A stretch of DNA of 64,000 bases from Nitzschia sp. pyKryTriq1. Taxonomy: Eukaryota; Bacillariophyta; Bacillariophyceae; Bacillariales; Bacillariaceae. How positions within the stretch are numbered: the stretch's first letter is position 1; each line of letters opens with the position of its first letter. Where the stretch lies: assembly GCA_956465555.1 (NCBI GenBank), contig OY101118.1:3183751-3247750 (forward strand), read 5' to 3'. The notes beneath the pieces are model-generated. The model had not been told where the DNA came from. It did no database searches and worked only from the letters and a program-made list of their open reading frames with translations. Made by a program: the position numbers and the translations under genes. Below, piece by piece: positions 2,198-54,749 of the stretch.

Positions 2198-4075
2198 TTA
2201 GCATGGCTCTTGCTCGCAAGAAAACGAAGGAACGGTGCTCACATTGGTGTTGAGCAGCCCACCAGGTCTCTCGTAGAAGACGAGCGGAGCGTAGTCCTCT
2301 CCAGTTTCGCGAGATAGAAAGCTTTCACCGAAAGGATTGCTTAGGTCCGGTGTTTGAAGGGCAAAGAGTACTCCACCGTTGTTGGGCATCTCATTGTTCT
2401 TGGATAGATCCAACAGGTCATTGATTTCAAACTCGGCCAGTCGCACTTCATCGGAAAGTGTAATCGTCGTGCCCAGCTTCTCTTCCCACACAAAGTCATC
2501 CCAAGTCAAGTCCTCAATGTTGAAACCGGCAGTTGCATTCTTGAAATAGTCAGCTTGCATACTCACACGGCTCACTTGCACTTTCGGAGATGGGTACGAC
2601 AACTTTTCGCCAATGTGTTCCACCCGAAGGACCAACGATTCCCCCGGAGTAGATTCCCCTTCTAGCATGGGGAGTCCCGTCAGATTGAAGTACAGCAGGA
2701 TCCGCGTTTGGAATCCACTGTTCTTGACCACCAAGAGGGAGTTACCGCTACCAAAGTTTTGAGTCGAACTAGCACCATCCCGTATGTACGTGTCAGCCAC
2801 AACCGGAAAGTACATCTTGTTGGGATCTCGAGTCGGATTCATGGTGGGGTAATTCGATGGCGCCGCCGTGGGAGTCATTGAAAGGGTGGGGGATAGGGAC
2901 GAGGAAGGCGGAATCGATGGTGGCACCGTGGGGGAAGTCGTAACGACCACGGGTTCCGCGGTTGAGGGAGCCATGGAAGGAGCCATCGAGGGTACAGGGG
3001 AGGGGGCAGCGGAAATGGAAGGAGCTGGAGTCGCATCATCCACACGGGACTCCTGCTTGTTGGTATTCGGAGTTGTGTCGTCCCTGCTAAATATAAGAAG
3101 ACTGGTGGCGATGACGGCCATGAGGACCCAACAGCAGCAGCATGCACACATGAGTCTCATGAGCGAAATTCGCCGTTGTGAATCTTCCACCAAGATATCT
3201 TTGGTTTTCTCCAGCTCTTCCGCATAGACTTCCAGGTCTTCATACGTATAGTGATCTGCTTCTCTCTCGGCATCGTCATAGTAGTACTCATCCTCATACT
3301 GCTCCTCAGGGTAGTCCCCATCATCAAGATCTTCTTCGTCATAGTAATTTCCTACAGGATCCTCTTCGCCGTAATAGCCTCCTTCTTGAAGAGGGTCCTC
3401 TTCGCCATAGTATCCTCCTTCTTCAAGATCGTCTTCATCACCAAAGTTGACGGTTTCTTGGTAGTCCTCATCACCCATTTCACCATCGTCGCCTTCCTCT
3501 TCTTGACTTTCTCCATATTCACCTTCCTCTTCTTCTTCATCATTATACTCCCCATCACCTATTATTTCTTCTTCTTGTTGTTGTTCATCTTGTTCTGGTT
3601 CTTGTTCTTCGCCTCCCTCTTCTTCGAAACTGGGCCTTTGCGCCACATAGTCCGGGGATACTGCCAAGACTGTTTGACCTCGTTCCTTTTTGGATTTGGG
3701 AGCTTCGCCCACCGATAACAATATTTGTTCCCCATCCAATAAATTCCGAATCACCAAATCTGTCTTGAGTTTCATCTCTTCGATGAGATCCTCCGAGTGC
3801 CCGATATCCGCATGCCGCTTATCGAGATACCATTCTATCACTTCATCCCATGTCAAATAGTTATTTTCGTCGTCTCCTCCTTCTTCGTCTCGTTCGAGAG
3901 ATTGCAAGTGACTGGCAACGGCATATTTGATGGACTCGTATTCTTCATAACTAATCTCGATGGCCTTTTTCTTTTTCTTCTTTTTCGCGCGTGTTTCTTG
4001 CTCATCGAACGGCTGCTCGCCTTGTTCAAACTCTTCTTGTTCTTCTTCTCCTTGTTGTTGTTGTTGATCACTCAT
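2198..4075 (-). CDS. Membrane protein: MCM6-like winged helix, acidic linker, TM helix, CBM96/DNRLRE domain
   Basis: A 625-residue protein with an unusual domain order. Residues 31-37 are a poly-lysine run. Residues about 39-145 read like the C-terminal winged-helix domain of the replicative helicase subunit MCM6: ISYEEYESIK, then EVIEWYLDK, then SEDLIEEMKL with VIRNLLDGEQILLSV, then VLAVSPDYV. A glutamate/aspartate-rich linker with repeated GGYYGEEDP units covers 150-290. A cysteine-rich membrane helix lies at about 309-330 (LMCACCCCW onward), a likely palmitoylation site. A Pro/Ser/Thr stalk (340-420) of the kind common in diatom wall proteins follows. The C-terminal 190 residues start FPVVADTYIRDG and contain TRILLYFNL, typical of DNRLRE/CBM96 modules. 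I infer a type II membrane protein with the CBM-like part outside. The frame is continuous, so this is not an artefact of joining exons. What the winged helix does on the cytosolic side is unknown. Confidence 0.75.
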   Translation of the reverse strand: MSDQQQQQGEEEQEEFEQGEQPFDEQETRAKKKKKKKAIEISYEEYESIKYAVASHLQSLERDEEGGDDENNYLTWDEVIEWYLDKRHADIGHSEDLIEEMKLKTDLVIRNLLDGEQILLSVGEAPKSKKERGQTVLAVSPDYVAQRPSFEEEGGEEQEPEQDEQQQEEEIIGDGEYNDEEEEEGEYGESQEEEGDDGEMGDEDYQETVNFGDEDDLEEGGYYGEEDPLQEGGYYGEEDPVGNYYDEEDLDDGDYPEEQYEDEYYYDDAEREADHYTYEDLEVYAEELEKTKDILVEDSQRRISLMRLMCACCCCWVLMAVIATSLLIFSRDDTTPNTNKQESRVDDATPAPSISAAPSPVPSMAPSMAPSTAEPVVVTTSPTVPPSIPPSSSLSPTLSMTPTAAPSNYPTMNPTRDPNKMYFPVVADTYIRDGASSTQNFGSGNSLLVVKNSGFQTRILLYFNLTGLPMLEGESTPGESLVLRVEHIGEKLSYPSPKVQVSRVSMQADYFKNATAGFNIEDLTWDDFVWEEKLGTTITLSDEVRLAEFEINDLLDLSKNNEMPNNGGVLFALQTPDLSNPFGESFLSRETGEDYAPLVFYERPGGLLNTNVSTVPSFSCEQEPC

Positions 4076-12693: not shown

Positions 12694-13126
12694 ACATCAG
12701 CATAAACATCAGCATCAATAGCTTCTTTGAAGGAGACGACGAAACAGAAAGGACTGGACATGCTGGGTACTACTCTACTAGTCCTGTAGCAGTACGTGGT
12801 ATCAATTGGACTGAAAGAAAGTTTGCCGTCCGCGTGATGGATCGATGGATGGATGGATGGATGCTATGGATGGCGAACAATAGAACATGTGAATGCTCTT
12901 CGGATTGGAGAATATCATCTATGGATACTAGTACCGGCTGTAATCATCAAGACTGTATTGGCTGATTGGATGGTGGGTTGCTTGGAGCATTTGAGAAAGG
13001 AATAACGGTCCTCCTCCTACTAGACGAAATGCTGCTCTACTAGTACTTCTGTGCGATGCTGCTGATTTTGCATCACCAACCAGGCTGGTTGTATCAGATC
13101 AACAATAGTAGTAGTGGCTATAGCAA
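12694..13126. other. Short convergent intergenic region
   Basis: Lies between the 3' ends of a plus-strand and a minus-strand gene. It holds a (GATG)n run at about 12839-12864 and nothing else I can name. Confidence 0.5.
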
Positions 13127-13708
13127 TTATGATTGTATTTTGAAACTGCTCGTCTGTGAAGAGAAGTGATGCTGTTGATCTCGTTGTTGTTCTCGTTGTT
13201 GTTGGTTGCCGAGCTCCTCGCTGCTCTTGTTAGGACGAAGGTACAGGATTTTGATAGGAGCAGAGGAGGAGCGTGCAGAGTAGTCATCGTCTCCTTCTGG
13301 AAAGAGCGAGTCCCAGCTTTCTTTTTGTTTGTGCTTACTGCTGGGTGTTGATGCTTTTCTTCTTGTGACTCGCTTGAGGCATTTTCGCCACTTATCCGAG
13401 TCAAACGAACGGAAGCTTCTGTCGTCGTCCTCGTCTTCGTGCTGTTGGTGATCAACAGCATGAGTGGTGCCACGATCTTGTTCATGCTTAGGGCGACGCC
13501 CAATACGCGATTGCTGCCTTTTGCTCGTACTTTGCTCCAGTAAGGACCGGGTAGTAGTAGTAGTACAAGATTCAGTTCCATATGCATTCTTCTGCGCAGC
13601 TTCGAACTTTTGGTCTAGGATTGCACTCAAATCCAACAGACTTTGGCGAGCGCTTTCCCGTCGATCGAGGTCGACCGAAGCGAGGATTCTCTCGATGGTG
13701 AGTTGCAT
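13127..13708 (-). CDS. Orphan family A-D, member A (193 aa)
   Basis: The start is ATG at 13708. The N-terminal 40 residues form a probable helix pair shared with three neighbours: ERILASVDLDRRESARQS, then LLDLSAILDQKFEA. A second shared block sits in the middle: DDDRSFRSFDSDKWRKCL followed by KRVTRR. A third is near the C terminus: APIKILYLRP. Between the blocks the sequence is polar and variable. There is no signal peptide or membrane helix; basic stretches suggest a nuclear or cytosolic site. I do not know the family or its function. It lies head to head with member B across about 970 bp that includes a perfect palindrome. Conservation of three separate blocks among four genes is the main evidence that this is a real protein. 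Confidence 0.7.
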   Translation of the reverse strand: MQLTIERILASVDLDRRESARQSLLDLSAILDQKFEAAQKNAYGTESCTTTTTRSLLEQSTSKRQQSRIGRRPKHEQDRGTTHAVDHQQHEDEDDDRSFRSFDSDKWRKCLKRVTRRKASTPSSKHKQKESWDSLFPEGDDDYSARSSSAPIKILYLRPNKSSEELGNQQQREQQRDQQHHFSSQTSSFKIQS

Positions 13709-14676
13709 CTCAGATTTGTTTGCCTTGCGTGATTAGTTTGAAAAGCGTCACTTTAACAAGAATTGTGAGCATCTATTCATACTCGTGGAGAGAGGATGAT
13801 ATGATCAAAGCTGTTGTGATAAGGGATCAACGGTGATTTCGGGGACTAAGTTTTTCCGCTCTTACTAGTCTCACCTCAGCTTTTCGGAGATTCTTTGCGC
13901 CACATAAAAAAATGGGACGCGAGAACAGGCAGAGACAGAACAGACCAGCGAACTGGCGCGCGGAACAGACAGCAAAGGAGAACTGTTCTCCTTTTATCAT
14001 CTTTCGAGAATGAAGCAAGGTCCCGCTGAGGAATCAATAAATATTCTAGGCCTTTGCTCGCCCCGAGAAGAACCCGTCGAATGGTACTCAAGGTTGAGAG
14101 TGCTCTGAAAGTTTTTTCGCGTGAGATTTTATTAGTACTCTCTCTCTCTACTAGCTAGCTACTCTAGAGTAGACAAGTACAGTAGAGAATGATCGTAGAG
14201 CAGCTGTTTCCCATGATTTTCGCCAGCCGAGTGTTTGTTCTTCGAGAGGGCACTCCCCAACTGTTAAACAAGAGCAGTTCGCATCTGTTCTCACTTATGT
14301 GTATAGGAAGCGAATCCTATGATTACAGTAAACGGTACCGGTACTGCCCCACTTCGCATCAGTTCTCTCAAAAGACGACGCGAAGGTTTCGAGAGAGTTC
14401 GAGAGACAGGAATGCATTCTCTTCGATGAAGTTATTATGTAAAATACTCCGACCAGCGCCAGTGAGAACCCGGAAAGAGTTCTAACAAACCATTCTTTTT
14501 CCCTGACGTAAGCCCCTGCAGTAGCGCTTCGCTTGATCGTTCCGCACCTGTACTGTACGTACCCCTCTTTTTTTCACCTTCACCCTCTCACAATTTATAG
14601 TTATTATTTTCAAAAGACGCAGTGTGTCTTGCAAACCATGTGCAGAATCTCGACGAAGTTCCCAGCACAAGGAACA
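13709..14676. promoter_or_regulatory. Divergent promoter region of members A and B
   Basis: Shared upstream region of two divergent paralogues. It contains a perfect inverted repeat at 13974-13994 with arms AAAGGAGAAC and GTTCTCCTTT around a single T. A TTCGAGAA word resembling half a heat shock element lies at 14003-14010. Several further TTCGAGAG words lie at 14390-14415. A CTCTCTACTAGCTAG cluster lies at about 14140-14165. Regulatory meaning is inferred only. Confidence 0.4.
13974..13994. repeat. Perfect 10-bp-arm palindrome in a divergent promoter
   Basis: Arms AAAGGAGAAC and GTTCTCCTTT with a one-base loop. It is too short to be a hairpin terminator of known type here and sits between two divergent gene starts, so a dimeric protein-binding site is the simplest reading. 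Confidence 0.5.
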
Positions 14677-15129
14677 ATGGCAAACAGAGACGACGATCAG
14701 CAGCAGCTGAAGGATACCATCGACAAAGTCATCGCCTCCGTTGACGACCTCGAAAAGCAGGAAATGGTTCGCCGAAGTTTGATAGCTTTGACGGATATCC
14801 TCGACCGCAAGTTCGAAGCTGTAACGGCATTGTCGAAGCAAGTGTATGCTGCTGACTCTAGCCGCTCTCTATTAGAGAAATCTCGTGGTTGTTCGAGGCG
14901 ATCACAGAAAACTTCTCAGAATGAATACAGCGACGAGGGCGACGACAGAAGCTTCCGCTCGTTTGACTCGGATAAGTTGCGAAAAGGCCTCAATCGAGTC
15001 ACAAGAAGGAGGACGAGGGCCTCACAAAGCAAAACAGAAGATGCAACTGAAAGACAGCAACTCCTCAGTTCACGTCCGATCAAAACATTATTTATTACCA
15101 AGACCGGGAGTCGACTGGGGAGCTTGTGA
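14677..15129 (+). CDS. Orphan family A-D, member B (150 aa)
   Basis: I chose the ATG at 14677 because it has a good context (ACAATGG) and places the conserved helix near the N terminus, as in the paralogues; an in-frame ATG at 14638 is the alternative. Shared blocks: TIDKVIASVDDLEKQEMVRR with LIALTDILDRKFEAV, then DDRSFRSFDSDKLRKGLN with RVTRRR, then RPIKTLFITK near the end. It is the most compact and complete member and so the best model for the family. The family has no membrane segment and no catalytic motif that I can see. The strings of Arg/Lys after the FDSDK block could be a nuclear signal or a nucleic-acid contact. Function unknown. Confidence 0.7.
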   Translation: MANRDDDQQQLKDTIDKVIASVDDLEKQEMVRRSLIALTDILDRKFEAVTALSKQVYAADSSRSLLEKSRGCSRRSQKTSQNEYSDEGDDRSFRSFDSDKLRKGLNRVTRRRTRASQSKTEDATERQQLLSSRPIKTLFITKTGSRLGSL

Positions 15130-15503
15130 ACAAGAAGAGCCTTAGTTGTCCATCATTTTCTTTTAATCCTACAACTCAACGCCGAGGCGCTGAAAGACGG
15201 ACATAACACAGTTTTGTATTCTGATAATTTGGTCTAATTCTTTTGTTTTTCGCAATCTATCATGCTTCGACTTCTTTGTTTAGATTGTCCGTCCCCATTC
15301 CTCCTAATACTACAAGCTCATCTCTACTATTCATCGCGAGTGTCGGTAGCCTCAAGTTGCTGGTTGGGAGATGATAATGATTGAAGAGATTATTCTGCGG
15401 TGCAAAAAAGTACGCGAAAAAACCGTGAAAATTTAGCGCGCGGTGGAGTTCGGATTCCTACCAGTAGAGTATTTGCTACTACTAGTAATACTGCTACAAA
15501 AGC

Positions 15504-15767
15504 AGCGTAGAATGGCATTAGTACTAGTAGCATACAAAGTAAAGCCATAAGTATTTGAGAAAGGTCGGTCGGTGGTGGCTAATAGTTTGTAGTAGTAAAA
15601 AGTGCGAACCGCTTTCTCCTCTCTACTAGTTGTAAAGCGTAGAATGGCATTAGTACTAGTAGCATACACAGTAAAGCCATAAGTATTTGAGAAAGGTCGG
15701 TCGGTGGTGGCTAATAGTTTGTAGTAGTAAAAAGTGCGAACCGCTTTCTCCTCTCTACTAGTTGTAA
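15504..15767. repeat. 132-bp tandem duplication, two copies
   Basis: Copies 15504-15635 and 15636-15767 differ at about one position (CATACAAAG against CATACACAG). Each ends in GCGAACCGCTTTCTCC followed by a CTCTACTAGTTGTAA tail. The near identity points to a recent duplication. A diverged relative at 15902-15957 keeps TTTGAGAAAGGTCGGTGG and GTGCGAACCGC. I see no terminal inverted repeat or coding capacity, so I do not call it a transposon. Confidence 0.8.
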
Positions 15768-15901
15768 ATAGTAGAGGAAGTACAAGTACTGTACCATGAA
15801 GAAGATACCAACCAAAGCGGCGCGATGGATGATTCGTGGTACTACAGTACTACTAGTAGTAGTACCTTACAAAATAATTTCCCTATTTGAAAGAATACGC
15901 C

Positions 15902-15957
15902 ATTTGAGAAAGGTCGGTGGTGGCGGCTAGTACTATAGTGCGAACCGCCTTCTCATT
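15902..15957. repeat. Diverged third copy of the 132-bp repeat (partial)
   Basis: Keeps TTTGAGAAAGGTCGGTGG and, after a shortened middle, GTGCGAACCGCCTTCTC. The gap between the two blocks is shorter than in the main copies, so this is an older, deleted copy. Confidence 0.6.
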
Positions 15958-16273
15958 CCAGGTACCACAGAGAGTTGTTGATTAATTTTAAAAGAAAACA
16001 ATTATGCTGAACCCATATCTCTACTACCGTACCAGGTACAGTGCGTACAGTAATAGTAGTATTACATTTCGATTCGCTCGGTCGTGTGTGAGCATGTAGT
16101 AGTACTAAAAACGATGCCTGGAGAATTTAAGAAGCACTTCTCACAAATTCTCCTTTGTTGTAGCGCAACTTACATGTACCTCCTTCGGGAACTTCCTCCT
16201 TCGCGCTCACAATATTTCTCAAGCGATACCACAGATCAGTATTTGCATTACCACCGACGAACACGCCAGAGGA

Positions 16274-16696
16274 ATGGTTGATACAACAAATGAACAAAAC
16301 AAGCAACTCCTCCTCCTCGCTGTTCACAAAGTCATCACTTCCGTCGACCCCGATCGGCAGGAAAGCGTTCGCCAAAGTTTGACTGCACTGATGGCAAGGC
16401 TAGACCGAAATTTTGATGCCTTAGAACAAGCGGCATCTGAACAGCAGATGCGCTCTCAAGGACGAAATGGGTCAGTTGCACGAGGTGATCATCTCGTCGT
16501 CGATGAATGCGGGCACCGGCGGCGCCGTGAGGACAACGAAGATGAAGACGACGACCACAGCTGCCGCTCATACGATTCAGATAAAGTGCGCAAAGGATTG
16601 AAACGAGTCGAAAGGAGAGTGAGAATAACAAGAATCTCGTCAAGGTTATTGTCCGAATATGAATACCACCAGCAGGACGCGTTTGTCACCTACTAG
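16274..16696 (+). CDS. Orphan family A-D, member C (140 aa, short C terminus)
   Basis: The start is ATG at 16274. The N-terminal block is well kept: HKVITSVDPDRQESVRQS with LTALMARLDRNFDAL. The middle block appears as DDDHSCRSYDSDKVRKGLKR. The PIKTLYI block found near the C terminus of members A, B and D is absent; the protein ends soon after an Arg/Ile-rich stretch. This could be a true short form or a copy whose 3' end has been lost or moved into an exon I did not find. It is in the same orientation as B and D, which suits tandem duplication. Function unknown. Confidence 0.6.
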   Translation: MVDTTNEQNKQLLLLAVHKVITSVDPDRQESVRQSLTALMARLDRNFDALEQAASEQQMRSQGRNGSVARGDHLVVDECGHRRRREDNEDEDDDHSCRSYDSDKVRKGLKRVERRVRITRISSRLLSEYEYHQQDAFVTY

Positions 16697-17932
16697 TACT
16701 ACTATCATCGATTGCTGTCCTCTTCTCGCTCCTGCCAGCAGACATCCTCCTCATTAACCATATGGACACGGAGCAAGTACTATCGCCAATCTCTACTAGC
16801 TAGTGATGATTCTACTCTAGCACCAAAAAAGGCGCTTCTTACAGTCTAATTCTAATATTTGATAATTATACTACTACCGGTAGTACTCCGAGTACATCGT
16901 CGTGCTGGTGGTGATGATGATGCTCGTCGTGGTAGCAAGAGGAAGAAGGACGGAGACAACGATGATAGTACCTCTCAATCCAAGTCGACCACGAGGAAGA
17001 AGAACGAGATCGACCATGAGCATCTGAATCACAGCACCCTCAAGCCGCTCCTTGAGTCTCAAGGCAATCTCAAGGCTATCGAGAAAGGAGAGCGACTCTT
17101 CCAGATGTTGATGAGGCATATATTACTGCTCATCCAGGATTCCCAGATTGAGTTTGCAGGAAGCTAGTCGCAGGTTTGTTCGTGGAAGTAAGTTGATCTT
17201 GTCAACTATTCAGAAAGATAGATGCTGAAAAGCTCTCAATAAATTAGACGAGAGACTGTCAAACAATTCTCTACTACCTACTAGAGTGGAACGAGTCCAC
17301 GTCTATTAGCTACCGGTAGCTACGTCTACTACTGTCACAACACGGAGACCTGCCAGACTACAGTCGTATTAGTCAAACTCCGGTCGCGTTAGTCAAAGGG
17401 TACTCGTGCGAGGTATTCAGCTAGCCGTACAAGTACCGGTATGTGCTGCGGCTGGCCGAAATGACGAGTGCCGTGCGCCCCAATCAATCCTCAGGGCTTG
17501 GGGAATCGCGATTCCCCATCCGAAGTGGGCAACAATCCGCAATAATTACTGTCTGGAGGTTGGGCCTCTCGCCCCACCTTTCCACCTCGCTGGTTGGGTA
17601 TTATACCGGTACCGGTACGTTCTGTACCGACCTGTACGTAGCTATTTCACGTTCTGCCCGCGCATCGGGCGGGTCGATAAGAAAACAGCGAACCTCTGTC
17701 TTCTCCCACGAGTACGCTATACGAGTACTTCTACTTGGAAATTATTTGTTCTCCGAGGAAAAAAGAGAAGCTTCAAGCTTCAAGATAGTAGCAGTGTGTT
17801 AATTAGAGTAATTCGTGCCTTCGCGAAGTCCATAGTAATACCCAAGAACGACATCATGGATCATACGTCTTACAGTTTTAGTTGCATTGCTAAAACGACT
17901 TGATTCTCACCGCATAACTTCCAAAAACAACA
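16697..17932. other. Intergenic, possible small frames only
   Basis: About 1.2 kb between members C and D. Apart from the small frame at 16859-17167 (listed separately) and a longer one at 17406-17903 with no protein-like features, it holds CTACTAG and ACCGGTA words. A stretch at 17440-17600 is free of simple repeats and unexplained. Confidence 0.45.
16859..17167 (+). CDS. Possible small orphan gene or gene fragment (102 aa)
   Basis: After a hydrophobic first dozen residues, the frame is Lys/Asp/Ser-rich (GSKRKKDGDNDD) and ends in an amphipathic segment, LKPLLESQGNLKAIEKGERL followed by FQMLMRHILLLIQD. The second half looks more protein-like than chance, but nothing in it is recognisable. 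It has no clear relation to the A-D family around it. It may be a remnant of a larger gene. Confidence 0.25.
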   Translation: MIIILLPVVLRVHRRAGGDDDARRGSKRKKDGDNDDSTSQSKSTTRKKNEIDHEHLNHSTLKPLLESQGNLKAIEKGERLFQMLMRHILLLIQDSQIEFAGS

Positions 17933-18739
17933 ATGCAAAACCAACAATTCATCATCGAAAAGACCGTCGCTTCCATTCAGCATCCAGGGGAAAGGGAACA
18001 TGCCCGCCAAATGCTCTTGTCTTTGACCGAGATCCTCGACCGGAAATTCAACGCAACGATGCTCCTGGCAGCGTCACCAAAAGAGCAAGAAAAAGGAGAT
18101 GTGTTGAAAAACAAGTCTTGTGGTGACGGGCCATTTTGCCCGGAATCACCGAGTAGTACGGCTAGTTCAATTGTATCCTTGCTTGAACACACGCCTGCTG
18201 CTAAGGATGACATACCATGTTTCCCCATCCATCAAGACCCCCCTGGCTTCTTGTCTTCTTCTCGTCACGACGATGCTGATCTTCTTCTTCCTGCCGCAGG
18301 CCAGAATTTTGAAAGGTCCCTCCCCCGCCGCCGGAGAAGTAATTCCCACCCAACATTAGAACTGAAAACACGCCCAAGCCACAACAACCAGGAGAGAACC
18401 GAGATGTTTCAACAAAACCCACGAAAAGAGAAGCGCACGAAGAAGGCATCATCCTCCCTTGACAGCAACAACCTATGCTTCATCGAGGATGAATTCGGGC
18501 TTCTTTTCCGGAGCTCTACTTCTATTAGTGGCTGCAACCAAGGAGTTCTCGCCAATCATCAGCATGGAAAGAAGACACATCGCCACAAGAAATGCGAGTC
18601 ATCCTTTGAACCACCTATCAAAACCTTGTACATTCCTAGTACTATGACCTCCGATATTATGTCCGATATGATGGTGATAGACAAAGAAGCACAATACGCG
18701 AGCAGTGATGCATTCCAAGACTTTCGTGTGATCGGTTGA
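17933..18739 (+). CDS. Orphan family A-D, member D (268 aa)
   Basis: The start is ATG at 17933. The N-terminal block is EKTVASIQHPGEREHARQ with LLSLTEILDRKFNA, clearly the same unit as in A-C. The FRSFDSDK block is not present; instead there is a long polar insertion with PRRRRSNSHP and KKTHRHKK basic clusters. The C-terminal block returns as EPPIKTLYIPS, followed by 30 extra residues. It is the longest and most diverged member. It is tail to tail with threonine synthase, only about 155 bp away. No domain, signal peptide or membrane helix is visible. Confidence 0.65.
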   Translation: MQNQQFIIEKTVASIQHPGEREHARQMLLSLTEILDRKFNATMLLAASPKEQEKGDVLKNKSCGDGPFCPESPSSTASSIVSLLEHTPAAKDDIPCFPIHQDPPGFLSSSRHDDADLLLPAAGQNFERSLPRRRRSNSHPTLELKTRPSHNNQERTEMFQQNPRKEKRTKKASSSLDSNNLCFIEDEFGLLFRSSTSISGCNQGVLANHQHGKKTHRHKKCESSFEPPIKTLYIPSTMTSDIMSDMMVIDKEAQYASSDAFQDFRVIG

Positions 18740-25298: not shown

Positions 25299-25934
25299 TC
25301 ACAATTGCTTTCTTGCGACCCGCGGGCAGTCGGCTAGAGTAATGGAATCAAAACTTGTGTCAGATGCCCTTCTTGGGATGCGACAGCATCTTCGACTCTT
25401 CTTCTTCTTCTTCTTCTTGCCGAGTGCTTCACCATTTCTCGAGTCGTCACCATCATCAGCCAAACTTACACTCCGTTCTTCTTCGCCATCATCGAGATAT
25501 TCGCAGAGACGAAAGCCGAAAATGATTGGACCTTCTTCTGGTAGTGTCGCTTCTTCGTCGTCGGAGGCAACCTCGTACGCCGAGGAGGAGCAGGACACCA
25601 ACTCATACACCGACGACGACGACGACGCGAGGCTACTAGAATCGTCGCCAGAAGACCATGTCGCACAAGACCATGTCTGATTTGTCCCATGGGAGGATGG
25701 CTTTTTAAAAACTTCAATGTAACAACAATCCTCATCGTTCTTGATAGGAGAGGAGCACATTTCTTCAACGTCGATTTTGCTATCGTTCTCGTTGCCCTGC
25801 TGACCAAAGCGCCGCCGTCTCGTCACGGCGTCTTTCTTGCTGCAGCATGGCATTGGTTTCTGAGGTTGTGGAATATCAGTCTTCTTGGTTTTACTAGCGT
25901 ACTGACGAAGTATTGATGGACGGCTCGCGAACAT
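25299..25934 (-). CDS. RRxS family, member 2 (211 aa from first ATG)
   Basis: The first in-frame ATG is at 25934, but the frame stays open upstream to beyond 26081, so the true start or an upstream exon may be missing. The protein shares blocks in the same order with its neighbour at 26609-27421: SSHGTNQTWS followed by a Ser-rich acidic patch, FGFRLCEYLDDGEEERSVSL (against ICFVIDLNDGEES), then RRASDTSFDSI and the terminal CPRVARKQL (against CPRVSRR). The RRxS element fits a basophilic kinase site, as known for PKA- and CaMK-type kinases; that is inference. No known domain, signal peptide or membrane helix is visible. Confidence 0.55.
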   Translation of the reverse strand: MFASRPSILRQYASKTKKTDIPQPQKPMPCCSKKDAVTRRRRFGQQGNENDSKIDVEEMCSSPIKNDEDCCYIEVFKKPSSHGTNQTWSCATWSSGDDSSSLASSSSSVYELVSCSSSAYEVASDDEEATLPEEGPIIFGFRLCEYLDDGEEERSVSLADDGDDSRNGEALGKKKKKKKSRRCCRIPRRASDTSFDSITLADCPRVARKQL

Positions 25935-26081
25935 GTTCTTGACTTGTTGGGTTGGTTCGAAAATTTGTTGTTGGCCTTGGGCGTTGTCAGGTTGGCTTGA
26001 ATAAGGTTTGAAGCCTTTTCTTGTTGGCCATGTTCGTTGGGAAATAATCAGATGAAGAGGGGCTCTTATTATTATTTGCAA

Positions 26082-26491
26082 TATTCCAGATTGACCGTCC
26101 CGATACTCGTCACTGACTCACGTCTTGTAATATATATTGCATCACTTACAATATATATTGCATCATCCGAAGAACGGCGAGTTCGCATGTTGCATATGCC
26201 TTCGGCGAAACATCATCATACCACCGTCGGTACTTGTATGCATTTACGCGGGATTTTAGAGTGGGGGAGGAGGAGCTCTCCGCGCGCTCGCTTGGTCTTC
26301 TCTTGCTTTCTACTGTAGAAGAGCAGAGACGAGACATGTAGAGTACCGCATAAGTTAGCACTCTACTACTGGTAGAGAGACTGGTGCATGCATGGAGAGA
26401 ACGAAGCTTTTTCAACAATATTACTAGAAATTGAGATCGCAGTTCTAAAACGCAATCACGCGGAGTAATTTTCTTTTTGATAACACTACTA
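26082..26491. other. Intergenic with 16-bp direct repeat
   Basis: AATATATATTGCATCA occurs twice, at 26129-26144 and 26150-26165. The rest is unremarkable. Confidence 0.5.
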
Positions 26492-26608
26492 CTATCTTCT
26501 CCTGCTGGAAGAAACTCTAGGGCAAATGGAGTTTGCCAGAGTGTCATTGCTTGCCAGAGAGTCAAAGCTGTCGTTGGATCCCCTTCTAGTAGGTACTACT
26601 CTCCTTCT

Positions 26609-27421
26609 TTAGACACGGGGGCAATTCGATTTTGCCAGAGAGTCGTAGCTTGTCAGAGAGTCAAAGCTTTCATTGGATCCCTGTCTAGACATGCGGGTGG
26701 TGCGTCGTTGATCACCAGGAATCTTGTTCTTCTTTTCGTTGCGCTCTGCAGAATCCTTGTCGGCGTCACGCAGACTGATACTGCACTCGTCGTTTGCAAA
26801 CCCAATACTTTCTTCTTCATCATTCAGATCAATTAAAAAGCAAATCGCTGCGTTTTGCTCTTCGTGGTGACGATCCACGGTACTTTCGTTGAATCCCCTT
26901 CTAGTAGGTAATACTCTCCTTGAGACACGAGGGCACTTCGATTTTGCCAGTGAGTCGTAGCTTGTCAGAGAGTCAAAGCTTTCATTGGATCCCCGTCTAG
27001 AGATCATCCTTTTATCGTTGCGCTCAGCAGAATCCTTGTCGGCGTCACGCAAACTGATACTCCAATCGTCGTTTACAAATCCATAACTTTCTTCTCCATC
27101 ATTCAGATCAATCACAAAGCAAATCTCTGCGTCTTGCTCTTCGTCGTGGTGGTGAAGAAAATCACCGGCGGCGCCGGCGTCCTCCTCGTCCTCATCCTCC
27201 GTGAACGACGACGAGAAACTATCGCCGAGAGACCAGGTCAAGCTCGTCCCATGAGAGGAATGAGCTGGCTTGTTCATGAAATCAGCGAGGTTCAACCCTT
27301 GGTCATCAGTGAGTGGTGAGAAGTATTCAAAACCGGTCTCACCCGCGTTCGCGGCCTCTTGGTTGTTCTTGTGACTAGCAGTACGCTGTAGATGATGATC
27401 GGACGAAGAGTGCATAGACAT
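26609..27421 (-). CDS. RRxS family, member 1, with internal 93-residue duplication (270 aa)
   Basis: The start is ATG at 27421. After SSHGTSLTWSLGDSFSSS the protein has two tandem units of about 93 residues. Each runs ICF(V/L)IDLND, SISLRDADKDSAERN, S-R-(R/Q)-GSNESFDSLTSYDSL, then AKS(K/N)CPRV. The DNA of the units is nearly the same, so the duplication is fairly recent. The stop (TAA at 26609-26611) falls right after CPRV, where unit 1 reads Ser (TCA). Beyond the stop, the frame stays open for 39 codons and encodes part of a further unit (TRRGSNDSFDSLA, then ICPRV) before TAG at 26492-26494. Thus the present gene ends early compared with an ancestral form, or read-through gives a longer product. 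Function unknown. Confidence 0.65.
   Translation of the reverse strand: MSMHSSSDHHLQRTASHKNNQEAANAGETGFEYFSPLTDDQGLNLADFMNKPAHSSHGTSLTWSLGDSFSSSFTEDEDEEDAGAAGDFLHHHDEEQDAEICFVIDLNDGEESYGFVNDDWSISLRDADKDSAERNDKRMISRRGSNESFDSLTSYDSLAKSKCPRVSRRVLPTRRGFNESTVDRHHEEQNAAICFLIDLNDEEESIGFANDECSISLRDADKDSAERNEKKNKIPGDQRRTTRMSRQGSNESFDSLTSYDSLAKSNCPRV
26611..27168 (-). repeat. Two tandem 279-bp coding units inside the RRxS gene
   Basis: The offset between equivalent bases (for example the start of GCGCTC(T/A)GCAGAATCC at 26741 and 27020) is 279 bp, or 93 codons. Boundaries are approximate. Part of a third, more diverged unit lies at 26492-26608. Confidence 0.75.
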
Positions 27422-47651: not shown

Positions 47652-49350
47652 ATGCCGAAAACTCATGAGAATAATAAGACATATGCGATATTGTTCCCGG
47701 AGCTCCTTCATGATTTGCTGGAGGACGCCGAGAACAACAGTGAATCTGATATCGTTTCGTGGAGTCCGAATGGACGATGCTTCAGGGTCTACAAAAAGGA
47801 AGACTTTGTGAAGACGATTCTTCCTAGATACTTCAAATTATCGCACTATCGGAGCTTTACGAGACAGCGTGAGTATAATACCTGTTGGCGCGTCTTGTTT
47901 TGACGTATTGAGCTACTGTAATATGGTACAGTTCTCGAAGTACTATATAGTATGGCATCTGACTTTTTGTGATACTTGGCACTACTCATATATAGTCAAC
48001 ATATGGGGATTCCATTGCATCGAGACCGGCCCCGAAAAAGGATACTGTAAGTATACGCAAAGAAGATCGAAACTCGGCTTCGTCAATGCGATGATGATGT
48101 ATCTCAGAGCTCACCATCATTCTTCCGCGTTGCTTGCTTGCTTGCTTGTTTGTTGTTGTGTATTTGTATTAACAGACCAGAACGAACACTTTGTTCGAGG
48201 GAGAAGAGAACTTTGTAGAGGAATGTTTCGAGAAACGATCAAAGGCACGGGGAAGAAGCGACGGCCCTCGCAGCAGAGTAATAATGATCCTCCTGCGCGG
48301 TTTTCGACCACCACCGCCGCAGAATTCCCGCCCGGTAGCACCACTTTGGGTACGAGTATTGGCTTTGCTGGCGTTCCCGCTATGATCCAAATACCCCATA
48401 ATGAGGTATCATCACTTCCTTTGGTTCTTGGAATGGATGATTATCATGTTACCGGTAGAAGAAGAAGAGGCAGCAGCAGCAGCATTGACCGATCGGCGGT
48501 GGCAACCGCCTTTAATGCCTATCACCAGCAATCCGCTGCAGCCGCTGTCAGCGCGCTGCTGTCCTCGTCGTCGCCGCTAATGGTGGCATCTTGTTTCCAA
48601 CAACAACAACAACAACAACAACAACAAGCCCCAAAACAACAAGAACTCGAGGGGACCACGATCGAGGACAATCACCACCATCATGAAGATCAAGCAAATG
48701 CGCAGAGGACGAAAGCGCAGCAGCAGCATGGTTTGAGTCTAGCTGGGCTATTAGTGCCACCAGGATCTGCCGAGCAGAACATTAGCAGTCATCCCTACTA
48801 TTACGGAACTTTCCCTGCGGCCAATTTCAGTATTACTGATGCTGGTGCAAGAAGGAATGCGACTGGTACTAGTACTAGTAGTACGGCTGCTCATCAAGAA
48901 GCAGAGAAACGACGAGGCAGTTGGTGGGGAGACCTTTACACCGATCGAGGCTCTGTCAATGCTCTTGGTACGCAGTTTCTTCTTGTGGGAGGAGACAACA
49001 AGCAGCCATCGGATAATATTATGGGGGGAGATCCTCGTACTCAACTCTTGTTCAAGAACGGCGAGACTACGAGCAGCAGTAGCAGCAATTTTCATGATAA
49101 GGATGCTGCTGCTGCTGCTGCTGCTGAACAAGAAGAGGAAGATTGGCTGTCAGTATTTGAGAAGAAGTTCGACGCTGTGCATGAAGAACATCCTCTTGAA
49201 ACAAAAGACACAGCAGCAGCAGCAGCGCCCAATCGCCTTACTATTTTCGAATTGTCGTCATCAGCAGCAGCAGCCGCCGCCGCCTCACCAATTGCTCATG
49301 ATCCTCCCTCCGGATCGCATCATGATGACAAAATCTCCCATAGCATTTAA
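47652..49350 (+). CDS. Heat shock transcription factor, copy 1, three exons (480 aa)
   Basis: Exons 47652-47868, 47996-48046 and 48176-49350; introns are GT-AG, both phase 1. The HSF-type DNA-binding domain starts near residue 12: YAILFPELLHDLLEDAE, SDIVSWSPNGRCFRVYKKED, ILPRYFKLSHYRSFTRQLN (the recognition helix end is rebuilt by the splice), IWGFHCI, then NEHFVRGRRELCRGMFR. It binds inverted GAA repeats in heat shock promoters in known family members. No heptad-rich HR-A/B trimerisation region is obvious. The rest is Q-, A- and S-rich. Near the C terminus EEDWLSVFEKKFDAV is shared with the two neighbouring HSFs and looks like an aromatic-hydrophobic-acidic activation motif. KGTGKKRRP after the DNA-binding domain is a likely nuclear signal. 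Confidence 0.95.
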
Positions 49351-49994: not shown

Positions 49995-51610
49995 ATGTCG
50001 AAAGATCAGAACAACCGAGAAAAGGGAGCTTACTTCCCAGTACTGCTTCATGACTTGCTGGAGGACGCCGAGAATAGTAATGAATCTGATATCGTTTCGT
50101 GGAGTCCGAATGGACGTTCTTTTAGGGTCTACAAAAAGGAAGACTTCATGGAGACAATTCTGCCTAGATATTTCAGGCTCTCGCAGTATCGGAGCTTTGT
50201 GAGGCAACGTGAGTAGTATGATAAGTTTGATTTCTGTTTGTCAGATTGTTATACTCGAGGAATGCGATCAGCTACTAACTGAAATGATACGACGAAAAAC
50301 AACGCCTGCTGCTGCCGTATATATACTAATAGTCAACATATGGGGATTCAGATGCATCACCAAGGGTGCTGAAAAAGGTTTCTGTAAGTGCATCTTAATC
50401 AGCCCGGGATACTCATCGTTTGTGCACTGATCCATCTCAGAACACTCCTCCACTCCCTCGCTTGTCGTGTCACATCTTTTTCCATATCGCAGACCAGCAC
50501 AGCCACTTCGTTCGGGGAAAGCGAGAACTGTGCGACGGCATGTTTCGTGAAACAATCAAAGGCACAGGGAAAAAACGTCCTTTCATCCGGAAAAAAATAT
50601 CGTCCAAGCAAGAGGCTAACGTTGAATCGAAACAGCGATATATTTCCGACCAGGACGAACAAGTTCAAGAACGCCCTCTTTCAACAAGAAGAACTCATGC
50701 TGACCTAGTCCTACCACTCTCTCGCCACCGCACCTCCGTCGTCACTCCTCCGGCGAGTTATTTCTTACCCATGACTACCAGTTCGCTGCCGCCTTCCTTG
50801 AATATTTGCAGAGATGAGCCTTGCGGCTCCGCCTCAATAACAACTTCTTACCGTGCCGTTTCTGCTCCTGCTGGTATTGGTGCCCAAATCCCCACTTTCT
50901 TGTCGGCACCAGCCGTCGGCACCACCAGCACCACGCAGCAAGAGACAAAAATGCGGCCACTTTTTGATCCTAGTATCAGTAACACAACGGCGCCAAGTTA
51001 CCAGCACCTGCTTCTTCCTCAGGAGCAGTCAATAGTCCCTTCCTACGAGGACCAGCACCAGCCCAGCACGCTGACGACGCTGATGACATCTGCTGCGGAC
51101 GCTCCTGTCTATCATACCACCGCCGGCCGCGGGCTTCACCACCTCTTGCGACGAGATCCCACCAGCAACGTCGTTATGATGGACGGTAGTACTCCTCCCT
51201 TTGTTGCGCTTGGTGGGCGTAATCCTCCCCCCGAGGAAAATAGTATCAACTACGACTGGTTGGTGGAAGGTGAGGATGATCCCCCCGAGGAAATTAGTAT
51301 CAACTACGGCTGGTTGGTGGAAGGTGAGGATGATCATCATTCATTTGCCGGCATTTCGTTGATGGATGCCGCCACCACTACCATCACCAGAAATAGTCTG
51401 CCGGTACTAGCAGCAGACGACCAGTACCAATTCGTCATCGGTGGGAAGCACTTCGATGGTGCTGCTGCTGGGCTATCGGCAGAACAAGCAGCAGCAGCAG
51501 CAGCAACACAAGGAGGAGAAAAGGAAGAAGCCGATGATGGTGAGGATTGGCTCTCGATCTTTGAAAAGAAATTCGATGCGATTCCTCCTCCTCCTCGACT
51601 GCAAAAGTAG
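49995..51610 (+). CDS. Heat shock transcription factor, copy 2, three exons (460 aa)
   Basis: Exons 49995-50208, 50333-50383 and 50493-51610. The 51-nt second exon and both phase-1 introns fall at the same codons as in copies 1 and 3. DNA-binding domain: YFPVLLHDLLEDAE, SDIVSWSPNGRSFRVYKKED, LPRYFRLSQYRSFVRQLN, IWGFRCI and SHFVRGKRELCDGMFRET. It is closest to copy 1: about 40 residues around DIVSWSPNGR are almost the same. The middle region has a perfect-length 18-residue tandem duplication (NYDWLVEGEDD then NYGWLVEGEDD). The C terminus carries GEDWLSIFEKKFDA. KGTGKKRPFIRKK is a likely nuclear signal. Confidence 0.95.
51227..51334 (+). repeat. 54-bp in-frame tandem duplication within HSF copy 2
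   Basis: Copies 51227-51280 and 51281-51334 differ at only a few bases. Each encodes PPEE-(N/I)-SINY-(D/G)-WLVEGEDD, an acidic segment with a Trp core. Confidence 0.85.
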
Positions 51611-52466: not shown

Positions 52467-54749
52467 ATGGCGTCGTCGGAGCCGAAGGAACAGACGGGTC
52501 TCTTCCCTGAAATGATGCATGAGTTGCTGGAAGCAGCTGAGACGAACAACGAATCTGATATCATTTCATGGAATGACGAAGGCTTTTGTTTCAAGGTGCA
52601 CAAGAAGGAAGAATTCGTGGACAGAATTCTCCCTCGGTATTTCCGATTGTCACAATATAAAAGCTTCGTCCGACAGCGTAAGTCTTGAGCAGCATGATTA
52701 GTGATCGTTGTCGTTGTTCTTGCCTGCTGTGTTGTTGATATTCACCGCCAGCAGCACTGGATGAGGAATCTGCCTGAAAGCTAACGTGTGTTGCTCGTCT
52801 TTTATTCGAACAAAGTCAACCTATGGGGATTCGCGTGCATAAATGAGGGCAAACTCAAGGGCTACTGTAAGTAAAAGAATTGTTCTGACTGGTTCTATAT
52901 TTTCCAATGGATTCGTCTAACATTATCATTATGCTTCGTCGCGTTGCTTCTCGCAATATTAGATCGGAACGCTTTCTTTATCCGAGGAAGGAAAGAGTTT
53001 TGCAGCGGAATGGTCCGTGAAAAGATCAAGGGAACCCGAAGGAGACGGGACCCTATCAAGGGCTCAGTTCTAGATAAAGAAGTGAGTTCACCGGATTTGT
53101 CATCGGGAACAGCATCTACATCTCCTCTCTCCAGCAACGCAACGCGCAGTCAACCCATGGGCTCGTCGGCTACTTCTCCCCCTTTCTTCTCCCATTCGCC
53201 CGAGTTTCTAGCTCTCACAATGCTTGGACGAGCAGACCCGCAATCAATCGCACCATCATCCTCCAACGCGTTGTTTTACCCTCCTGTTTCTGTTGCGGCC
53301 GCAGCTGCTGGGGGTTCTGCTGTGGTTCCACCACCTCCATCCTCCCTAGTTGTGCCAATAAGTCAATCCTTATCTGTCGTGGCGCTCGATTCGAATCCCC
53401 ATCAACAACACCAATACCCATACCCATTAGCAAGCGATCCTCCTTTGGATGCCACATCTCGGTTTATGGAAAGTGTGGGTCTTCTTCGTCAAACAGAACC
53501 ACGAATGCCGTTCCAGCAGCACCAATCATATACTACCCAAGAATTAGACGAAGCACCACTGGTGGTGCAGCATCGCCACCCTGCTGCTGCTGCTGGTATC
53601 ATTCTTGGTACATCACCTGCTGATCAGCAGCATTACTACCGGCATGACATGGGCGGCAGGATGGGTCTTCGAGAAACCTTTTGGGGAGAGGAAGAACAGC
53701 CGCAGCCGCAACCGCAGCCAAATTCCCATCACACCAGTGGCGCACGCTCGCTGTTTTGGAACACTGCCCTTCCTGTTGCTTCTTCTCCAGACCTACTAGT
53801 ACGAGATGGTAGTGTTAATCAGCATCCGCGATCGCACCAGCCACATGTTGCTAGTACAGCAGCAGCAGCGGCGGCGGCAGCAGCAGCAGCACTTGATCCA
53901 AACAGCAGTGCTACTACAACTTCTCCACAACAAGTAGTAGCTCAGGCCATGGGCGCTTTTGTATTACCCCAGCAGTCCGATCCCCACTTCCAGCAAGAAG
54001 ATGTTCTTGCTTCGGGCGCCTCTCTTTCGATTCTTCAACGTTTGCAACACCAAATTTTGATGCGTTCCCAACAGTCGCAGCAACAACTGCAGGAACAACA
54101 ACAACGTCCTCCAAGGATGGAAATTTTTCAGAGTGGATCCCAGTGGACGCCAACCCCTTTTTACGGCAACACCACCACCACCACCACCAACAACAACAAC
54201 AACCTCGTCATTAGCCACCACGAACCGCCTCCACCTCCCTTATTACAATGGCGAAATTATGATCAGCAGCACCAAAACCAGCACGAGCACCAGCACCACC
54301 ATCAGCACCACGGGGAAGATTGGTTCACATCGTTGGAAAAGAATTTCTTTCTTGAGGACAACACCAATACTACTACCAACAAGAAGAAGGAAACCACCAC
54401 CACTGCCACTACTACTACTACTACTACCACCGCCACTACTACTACTACTACTGCCACTGCCACTAGCAGCGGGTCGAGTATGAGTAGGACCAGCACAAGT
54501 GTCGACGGGGACGCATCTTTTTCCAGCATGCTGGGTGATTCTGCTGCTGGTGGTGGTGGTGGTGATGCTGGTGGTGGTTCTTCTTATTTGGCCGCAGCAG
54601 CAGCTTCATCATCATCAAATAATATAACAACTCAAGAAGGACAAGAATATCAAGAACACCATAAGGATGATGATGGTCATGATGATGGCCATTATGATGA
54701 TCCTTCCAACAACATTCTCGAGCCGCGTCCCTTTTCTTCTCAGTGGTAA
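52467..54749 (+). CDS. Heat shock transcription factor, copy 3, three exons (682 aa)
   Basis: Exons 52467-52677, 52816-52866 and 52963-54749, with the same 51-nt exon 2 and phase-1 introns as copies 1 and 2. DNA-binding domain: LFPEMMHELLEAAE, SDIISWNDEGFCFKVHKKEE, ILPRYFRLSQYKSFVRQLN, LWGFACI and NAFFIRGRKEFCSGMVREK. It is the most diverged copy and has the longest tail, with runs of A, Q, H and T from triplet expansion. The shared motif near the C terminus is altered to GEDWFTSLEKNFFLED, keeping Trp, Phe and the acids. KGTRRRRDP follows the DNA-binding domain as a probable nuclear signal. A role in regulation other than heat stress is possible, as diatoms have many HSFs. Confidence 0.95.

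Follow-up and report, generated by a model that had tools for sequence, protein, structure and literature searches.

A putative local family of four orphan genes in the diatom Nitzschia sp. pyKryTriq1, with one predicted helical hairpin and two short motifs

Introduction

Do four short open reading frames (ORFs) crowded together in the genome of the diatom Nitzschia sp. pyKryTriq1 form one gene family and, if so, what could such a family encode? A large share of the genes in such algae has no known domain, and local families of this kind are already known in diatoms: in the parts of the Seminavis robusta report drawn on here (PMC7335047), tandem-driven expansions are described as largely species-specific, with many genes lacking annotation, tandem duplicates as less constrained than dispersed ones, and 40% of the genes as being of unknown function. 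We analysed the four ORFs, g1 to g4, within a stretch of 64,000 nucleotides of contig OY101118.1 (referred to as the window), for which a sequence-only reading had proposed an undescribed family expanded in place. On balance, we favour the explanation that they constitute a local, apparently lineage-restricted duplicated family encoding small intracellular adaptors, a judgement that takes the family, its evolution and a broad adaptor role jointly.

Results

Arrangement of the locus

All four ORFs were present at the proposed positions (Table 1), within 5.6 kb of one another (13127–18739). g1 is the sole inverted member and stands head to head with g2, with 968 bp between them. Translation of g2 could alternatively start at an in-frame ATG at 14638, 13 codons upstream, which would extend the product to 163 amino acids, and a fifth ORF (13099–13587, minus strand) overlaps g1 in another frame. 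The left neighbour of the cluster is a phosphodiester glycosidase of the NAGPA type in two exon-like pieces, and the right neighbour is a threonine-synthase-like PLP enzyme.

The intervals between the genes were also inspected. No exact 9- to 12-mer was common to at least three of the four upstream regions of 500 bp each, of which those of g1 and g2 overlap by 32 bp, and a scan of 13700–14700 for bacterial promoters and terminators was discarded as not meaningful for a eukaryotic host. Between g2 and g3, a 132-bp unit is duplicated in tandem with 99% identity (15504–15767). The g3–g4 interval contains an open, charged stretch of 88 codons (16901–17164, plus strand) that occurs once in the genome and is possibly an exon or a relic.

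Table 1. Positions in the window of the four ORFs, their conserved blocks and the word that spans the g3 stop codon
Feature	Coordinates	Strand	Description
g1	13127..13708	-	193-aa ORF; N, middle and C blocks
g1 C block PIKILYL	13238..13258	-	residues 151-157
g1 middle block	13355..13435	-	residues 92-118
g1 N block	13598..13699	-	residues 4-37; predicted helical hairpin
g2	14677..15129	+	150-aa ORF from ATG 14677; N, middle and C blocks
g2 N block	14716..14820	+	residues 14-48
g2 middle block	14932..15012	+	residues 86-112
g2 C block PIKTLFI	15076..15096	+	residues 134-140
g3	16274..16696	+	140-aa ORF; N and middle blocks, C block not found
g3 N block	16319..16420	+	residues 16-49
g3 middle block	16541..16621	+	residues 90-116
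CTACTAGTA word	16690..16698	+	contains g3 stop TAG 16694-16696
g4	17933..18739	+	268-aa ORF; N and C blocks, middle block not above chance
g4 N block	17951..18055	+	residues 7-41; predicted helical hairpin
g4 C block PIKTLYI	18614..18634	+	residues 228-234

Relationships of the four genes

The genome (40.65 Mb in 20 contigs) was searched exon by exon with a heuristic in which the best candidates were scored. With g2 as the query, the search returned g2 itself (E = 8.6e-88), g1 (1.3e-13), g3 (2.9e-12) and g4 (0.0017) and nothing else below 0.01, the two further matches having E-values of 0.66 and 0.87. Similarly, g1 recovered g2 (1.1e-13) and g3 (2.1e-9), with g4 at only 0.28, and g3 recovered g2 and g1 but not g4. 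Whole g4 recovered g2 only (0.007), and its N block alone reached both g2 (6.7e-4) and g1 (0.003). Judged by these matches, g1 to g4 are paralogues belonging to one local family, and g4 is its most distant copy, yet a member.

No fifth copy was found outside the cluster at E < 0.01 when the whole genome was searched with the four proteins and the g4 N block. Non-family matches at E-values of 0.66 to 1.23 (four loci, one of them with a kinase-like ORF and one in the window) were judged to be due to chance. Kinship with an orphan gene pair at 25299–27421, in which SFDS stands near PRV and basic residues, was also not supported: a search with the larger member of that pair returned three places, none of them outside its own cluster. 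Genome-wide, the middle-block pattern and the PIKTLYI pattern each had three matches free of mismatches, all within the g1–g4 cluster; because both patterns were derived from g1 to g4 themselves, these counts are a measure of specificity, not of discovery. With up to two mismatches, the middle-block pattern matched 19 further places, 15 of which are copies of one dispersed repeat, and its reversed control matched 1; with up to one mismatch, the C-block pattern matched 25 further places compared with 20 for a control pattern. The dispersed repeat that surfaced in the middle-block search carries AATGACAGTAACAAGKGTAGGAAGTGTCT and occupies its 15 places on ten contigs (C1, C2, C3, C5, C6, C8, C9, C10, C13 and C14).

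Nor did the four proteins match described families: there was no Pfam match over the cut-off (weak matches to SelP_N, at 0.014, and MRP-S25, at 0.074, fell under it), no NCBIfam match at E 0.1 and no PDB sequence match at E 10. Rfam gave no match in the window, and the block motif strings did not occur in the literature searched. The proposal of an undescribed family expanded in place, with no known domain, is thus supported by four paralogues in 5.6 kb, with none found elsewhere in the genome and no match among the described families searched. The family seems real and apparently undescribed, and local families of this sort are ordinary in such genomes.

Its apparent restriction to one lineage has a serious competitor, namely an older, fast-evolving family spread widely among diatoms or stramenopiles, with only the local duplication being young. 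We give this explanation appreciable weight, short of thinking it probable. Adjoining copies have already diverged to 27–49% identity over their aligned parts, so that orthologues elsewhere would be findable only by a profile search of proteomes, and the predicted N-terminal hairpin is kept in each member. On the other side, no relative was confirmed among 49 pattern stretches in viral contigs or 66 in prokaryote contigs, although these are the wrong organisms for the question.

Shared blocks and predicted fold

The N block, of about 35 residues, was found in 4/4 copies and is predicted to form a helical hairpin in g1 and g4, in keeping with the helix block that all four genes had been said to share. 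The middle block, SFDSDKxRKGLxRV, was found in three copies (g1, g2 and g3), in each of which an acidic run is followed by serines and then by a basic run. Three copies had been credited with this block or its traces; a trace in g4 was not upheld, as its best window was no better than those of shuffled g4 (P = 0.43). The PIKTLYI-like C block is likewise present in three copies (g1, g2 and g4), but these do not end with it as had been claimed, since it is followed by 36, 10 and 34 residues, respectively. In g3, the C block was not found against shuffles (P = 0.55), and none was seen when the three downstream frames of 16697–17300 were read by eye. Five blocks taken as present were subjected to the same shuffle test (N and C in g4, middle and C in g1, and middle in g3), and each gave P = 0.001, which is the floor of this test with 1,000 shuffles. 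All three blocks occur together only in g1 and g2, because g4 is without the middle block and g3 without the C block; the order of the blocks, described as constant, is therefore visible in only two of the four genes.

Structures of g1 and g4 were predicted with AlphaFold2 from the four-sequence alignment. The g1 model has an N-terminal helical hairpin with helices at residues 2–10 and 17–43 (mean pLDDT 81–91 over residues 1–40), and the g4 model has one with helices at 2–13 and 18–47 (mean pLDDT 89–95 over residues 1–40 and 83 over 41–50). The ten-residue mean pLDDT in the rest of both models is at most 63, and the g1 model additionally contains three short helices of low confidence. In these models, the N-terminal two-helix hairpin is the one confident element of both predicted members. 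The earlier picture of constant short motifs in a disordered backbone is accordingly right about the short blocks and the mostly low-confidence backbone, but only the N block is present in all four copies, and for it the prediction is an ordered helical hairpin.

A Foldseek search with the g4 model gave no significant match (all 11 E-values were above 4), a result that excludes nothing. The top fold rows were the katanin p60 N-domain, L27 and AHSP, all small helical modules, and unrelated rows scored equally; identity to modules such as L27 and the katanin p60 N-domain was 5–12%, and this lead is one of fold comparison only. For the long N helix, the hydrophobic moment was not significantly above that of shuffles in any of the four copies (P = 0.07–0.32), and amphipathic pairing is for this reason offered here as a hypothesis. 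The possibility of a secreted or silica-associated protein was discounted, since inspection by eye showed no hydrophobic signal at the N-terminus.

We also considered whether the proteins might be nuclear regulators, in which the basic KxRKGLxRVTRR part would serve nuclear entry or nucleic-acid binding and the hairpin would dimerise, as in a small transcription cofactor. This explanation appears unlikely to us: the succession of acidic run, serines and basic run is seen directly in g1, g2 and g3, and the lack of a visible N-terminal signal agrees with it, but g4 is without the middle block, no Pfam DNA-binding domain was found, and disordered proteins often contain basic runs.

Possible gene conversion and truncation

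The middle blocks of g1 and g2 are much more alike than the N blocks of these two genes. They are 94% identical over 77 nt and 90% identical over 27 aligned codons, compared with 74% for the N blocks; the mismatches between the two genes amount to 8/81 in the middle block versus 27/102 in the N block (P = 0.005). The g3 middle block is 67–69% identical to those of g1 and g2. Where the middle blocks have the same residue, the codon is a different one at 2/22 positions between g1 and g2, at 11/20 between g1 and g3 and at 11/19 between g2 and g3 (P = 0.002 for g1–g2 versus g1–g3), and no such contrast exists in the N block (5/19, 6/17 and 7/19, respectively). This likeness is best read as a short tract of gene conversion between g1 and g2, which are inverted relative to each other, the counts being small; the argument depends on the contrast with g3, because the synonymous differences between g1 and g2 by themselves (5/19 and 2/22) are too few for proof.

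The stop codon of g3 lies inside the word CTACTAGTA, which has 41 matches on both strands, at 29 places in the window, versus 0.27 matches expected. Possibly, a stretch of this type truncated g3 ahead of its C block. The palindromes TACTAGTA (32), TACCGGTA (27) and TAGTACTA (25) are also frequent in the window, and CTACTAGTAG was present in 20 of 49 loci examined, 7 of those 20 being outside the window. The abundance of these words may be partly due to TAC/TAG microsatellites.

Coding status and constraint

Between 13000 and 18800, we found five ATG-initiated ORFs of at least 140 amino acids, whereas 400 dinucleotide shuffles gave 0.075 on average and never more than 2. Codon usage gives no support for the coding of g1 to g4. 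Their synonymous codon preference in frame 0 was −0.03 to −0.06 bits per codon, the references being −0.01 to 0.25 for the training set, which comprised 11 ORFs assumed to be conserved genes and only partly checked for homology, and −0.43 to 0.04 for all frames of ten intergenic stretches. In each of the four ORFs, at least one of the other five frames scored higher than frame 0 in synonymous codon choice.

Comparison of dN/dS between copies, which had been suggested as a check on the family, gave NG86 values that were below 1, and not near 1 throughout, wherever the dS of a block pair was finite. For the N block, the values were 0.57 (g1–g2), 0.70 (g1–g3), 0.17 (g1–g4, with a dS of 2.1), 0.32 (g2–g3) and 0.41 (g2–g4), the dS of the sixth pair, g3–g4, being saturated. 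For the middle block, they were 0.40 (g1–g2) and 0.09 (g2–g3, with a dS of 2.7), with g1–g3 saturated, and the C block is too short for this measure. Residues were kept beyond random placement of the substitutions in 4/6 pairs of the N block (P = 0.003–0.045) and 2/3 pairs of the middle block (P = 0.0002 each), P values that are flattering because the blocks were picked for aligning as protein and the pairs are not mutually independent. The test was not significant for g1–g2 in either block or for g1–g3 in the N block. In the middle block of g3, 19–20 of 27 residues are kept despite 25–27 nucleotide changes. These substitution patterns suggest a lean towards protein-level constraint, and g1 to g4 look like a real local gene family. 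That they are instead decaying or non-coding duplicates, drifting relics of one ancestral gene whose frames are open by chance, is improbable, for although frame 0 is not favoured by codon choice, g3 and g4 each miss a block, and the g3 stop falls in a dispersed word, the four long open frames (at most 2 in shuffles), the dN/dS values below 1 and the residues kept in the g3 middle block argue against it.

Discussion

If g1 to g4 are a local family of adaptors, as we favour, each copy would give rise to a small soluble intracellular protein that joins partners. Only its N-terminal hairpin would be folded, and this would pair either within the family, with itself or a sister copy, or with a helix of a partner. 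Linear docking would be the task of the middle acidic–serine–basic block and of PIK(T/I)L(Y/F)(I/L), a role that we infer and that fits such short blocks. Loss of the C block from g3 and of the middle block from g4 would then leave the copies differing in the partners that they join. Phosphorylation of SFDSD is possible, and no observation requires it. Taken by itself, this adaptor mechanism is put forward tentatively, and we are more inclined to doubt it than to rely on it. A bolder version, which we regard as a long shot, would make the N block a pairing domain of a new, minimal helical type. The array would then consist of adaptors that can replace one another, all with the hairpin but with differing subsets of docking motifs, one motif being kept common by conversion between the inverted copies.

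In forming a local array of duplicated genes, the cluster resembles the tandem families of Seminavis robusta. Those named in the parts of that report drawn on here have known domains or names (LRR, cyclases, heat-shock factors and others), whereas g1 to g4 have no known domain and are four in number, one of them inverted (PMC7335047). The family would not alone overturn anything, and its interest is modest unless the hairpin is a new pairing domain. With one predicted fold, two short motifs and natural copies missing either motif, it nevertheless offers a tractable case for studying function and motif turnover.

Additional observations

Several other features were recorded in the window. In a 625-aa ORF at 2198–4075 (minus strand), a winged-helix domain of the type found at the MCM6 C-terminus (PF18263, 2e-12) is joined to an acidic stretch, a segment that by eye is probably transmembrane, and a CBM96 domain. 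In its PF18263 part, 57 of 103 aligned positions are identical to an MCM6-like ORF on contig C9, and no PF18263 places besides these two were found in the genome. The 625-aa ORF looks like a membrane protein that captured the tail of a replication helicase.

The orphan pair mentioned above (25299–25934 and 26609–27421, minus strand) is a second local set, with SSHGTxxTWS and RRxSxxSFDS...CPRV blocks. In the larger member (26609–27421), the RRxSxxSFDS...CPRV block is repeated internally, with a further piece of the repeat at 26507–26593, and a genome search found no relatives of this member outside its cluster. A third local set is an orphan trio on the plus strand (48223–49350, 50540–51610 and 53010–54749), characterized by an N-terminal M(F/V)RE(T/K)IKGT and a C-terminal EDW...EKxF. 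A search with 50540–51610 recovered 48223–49350 (E = 0.009) together with a weak match on contig C5 (0.06), and did not recover 53010–54749; no Pfam domain was found in the two members of the trio that were scanned.

In the genome as a whole, the light-harvesting family PF00504 has 72 matches. For one such protein, the best PDB match besides the multi-domain LHCI chains was a fucoxanthin-chlorophyll a/c protein (8iwh), which very probably marks the host as a photosynthetic stramenopile. Contigs C1 (at about 4.28–4.32 Mb) and C3 (at about 3.14–3.19 Mb) each carry two light-harvesting genes, with identical scores on the two contigs and comparable spacing (40 and 43 kb, respectively), and these pairs point to a recent duplication of large size or to retention of a haplotype.
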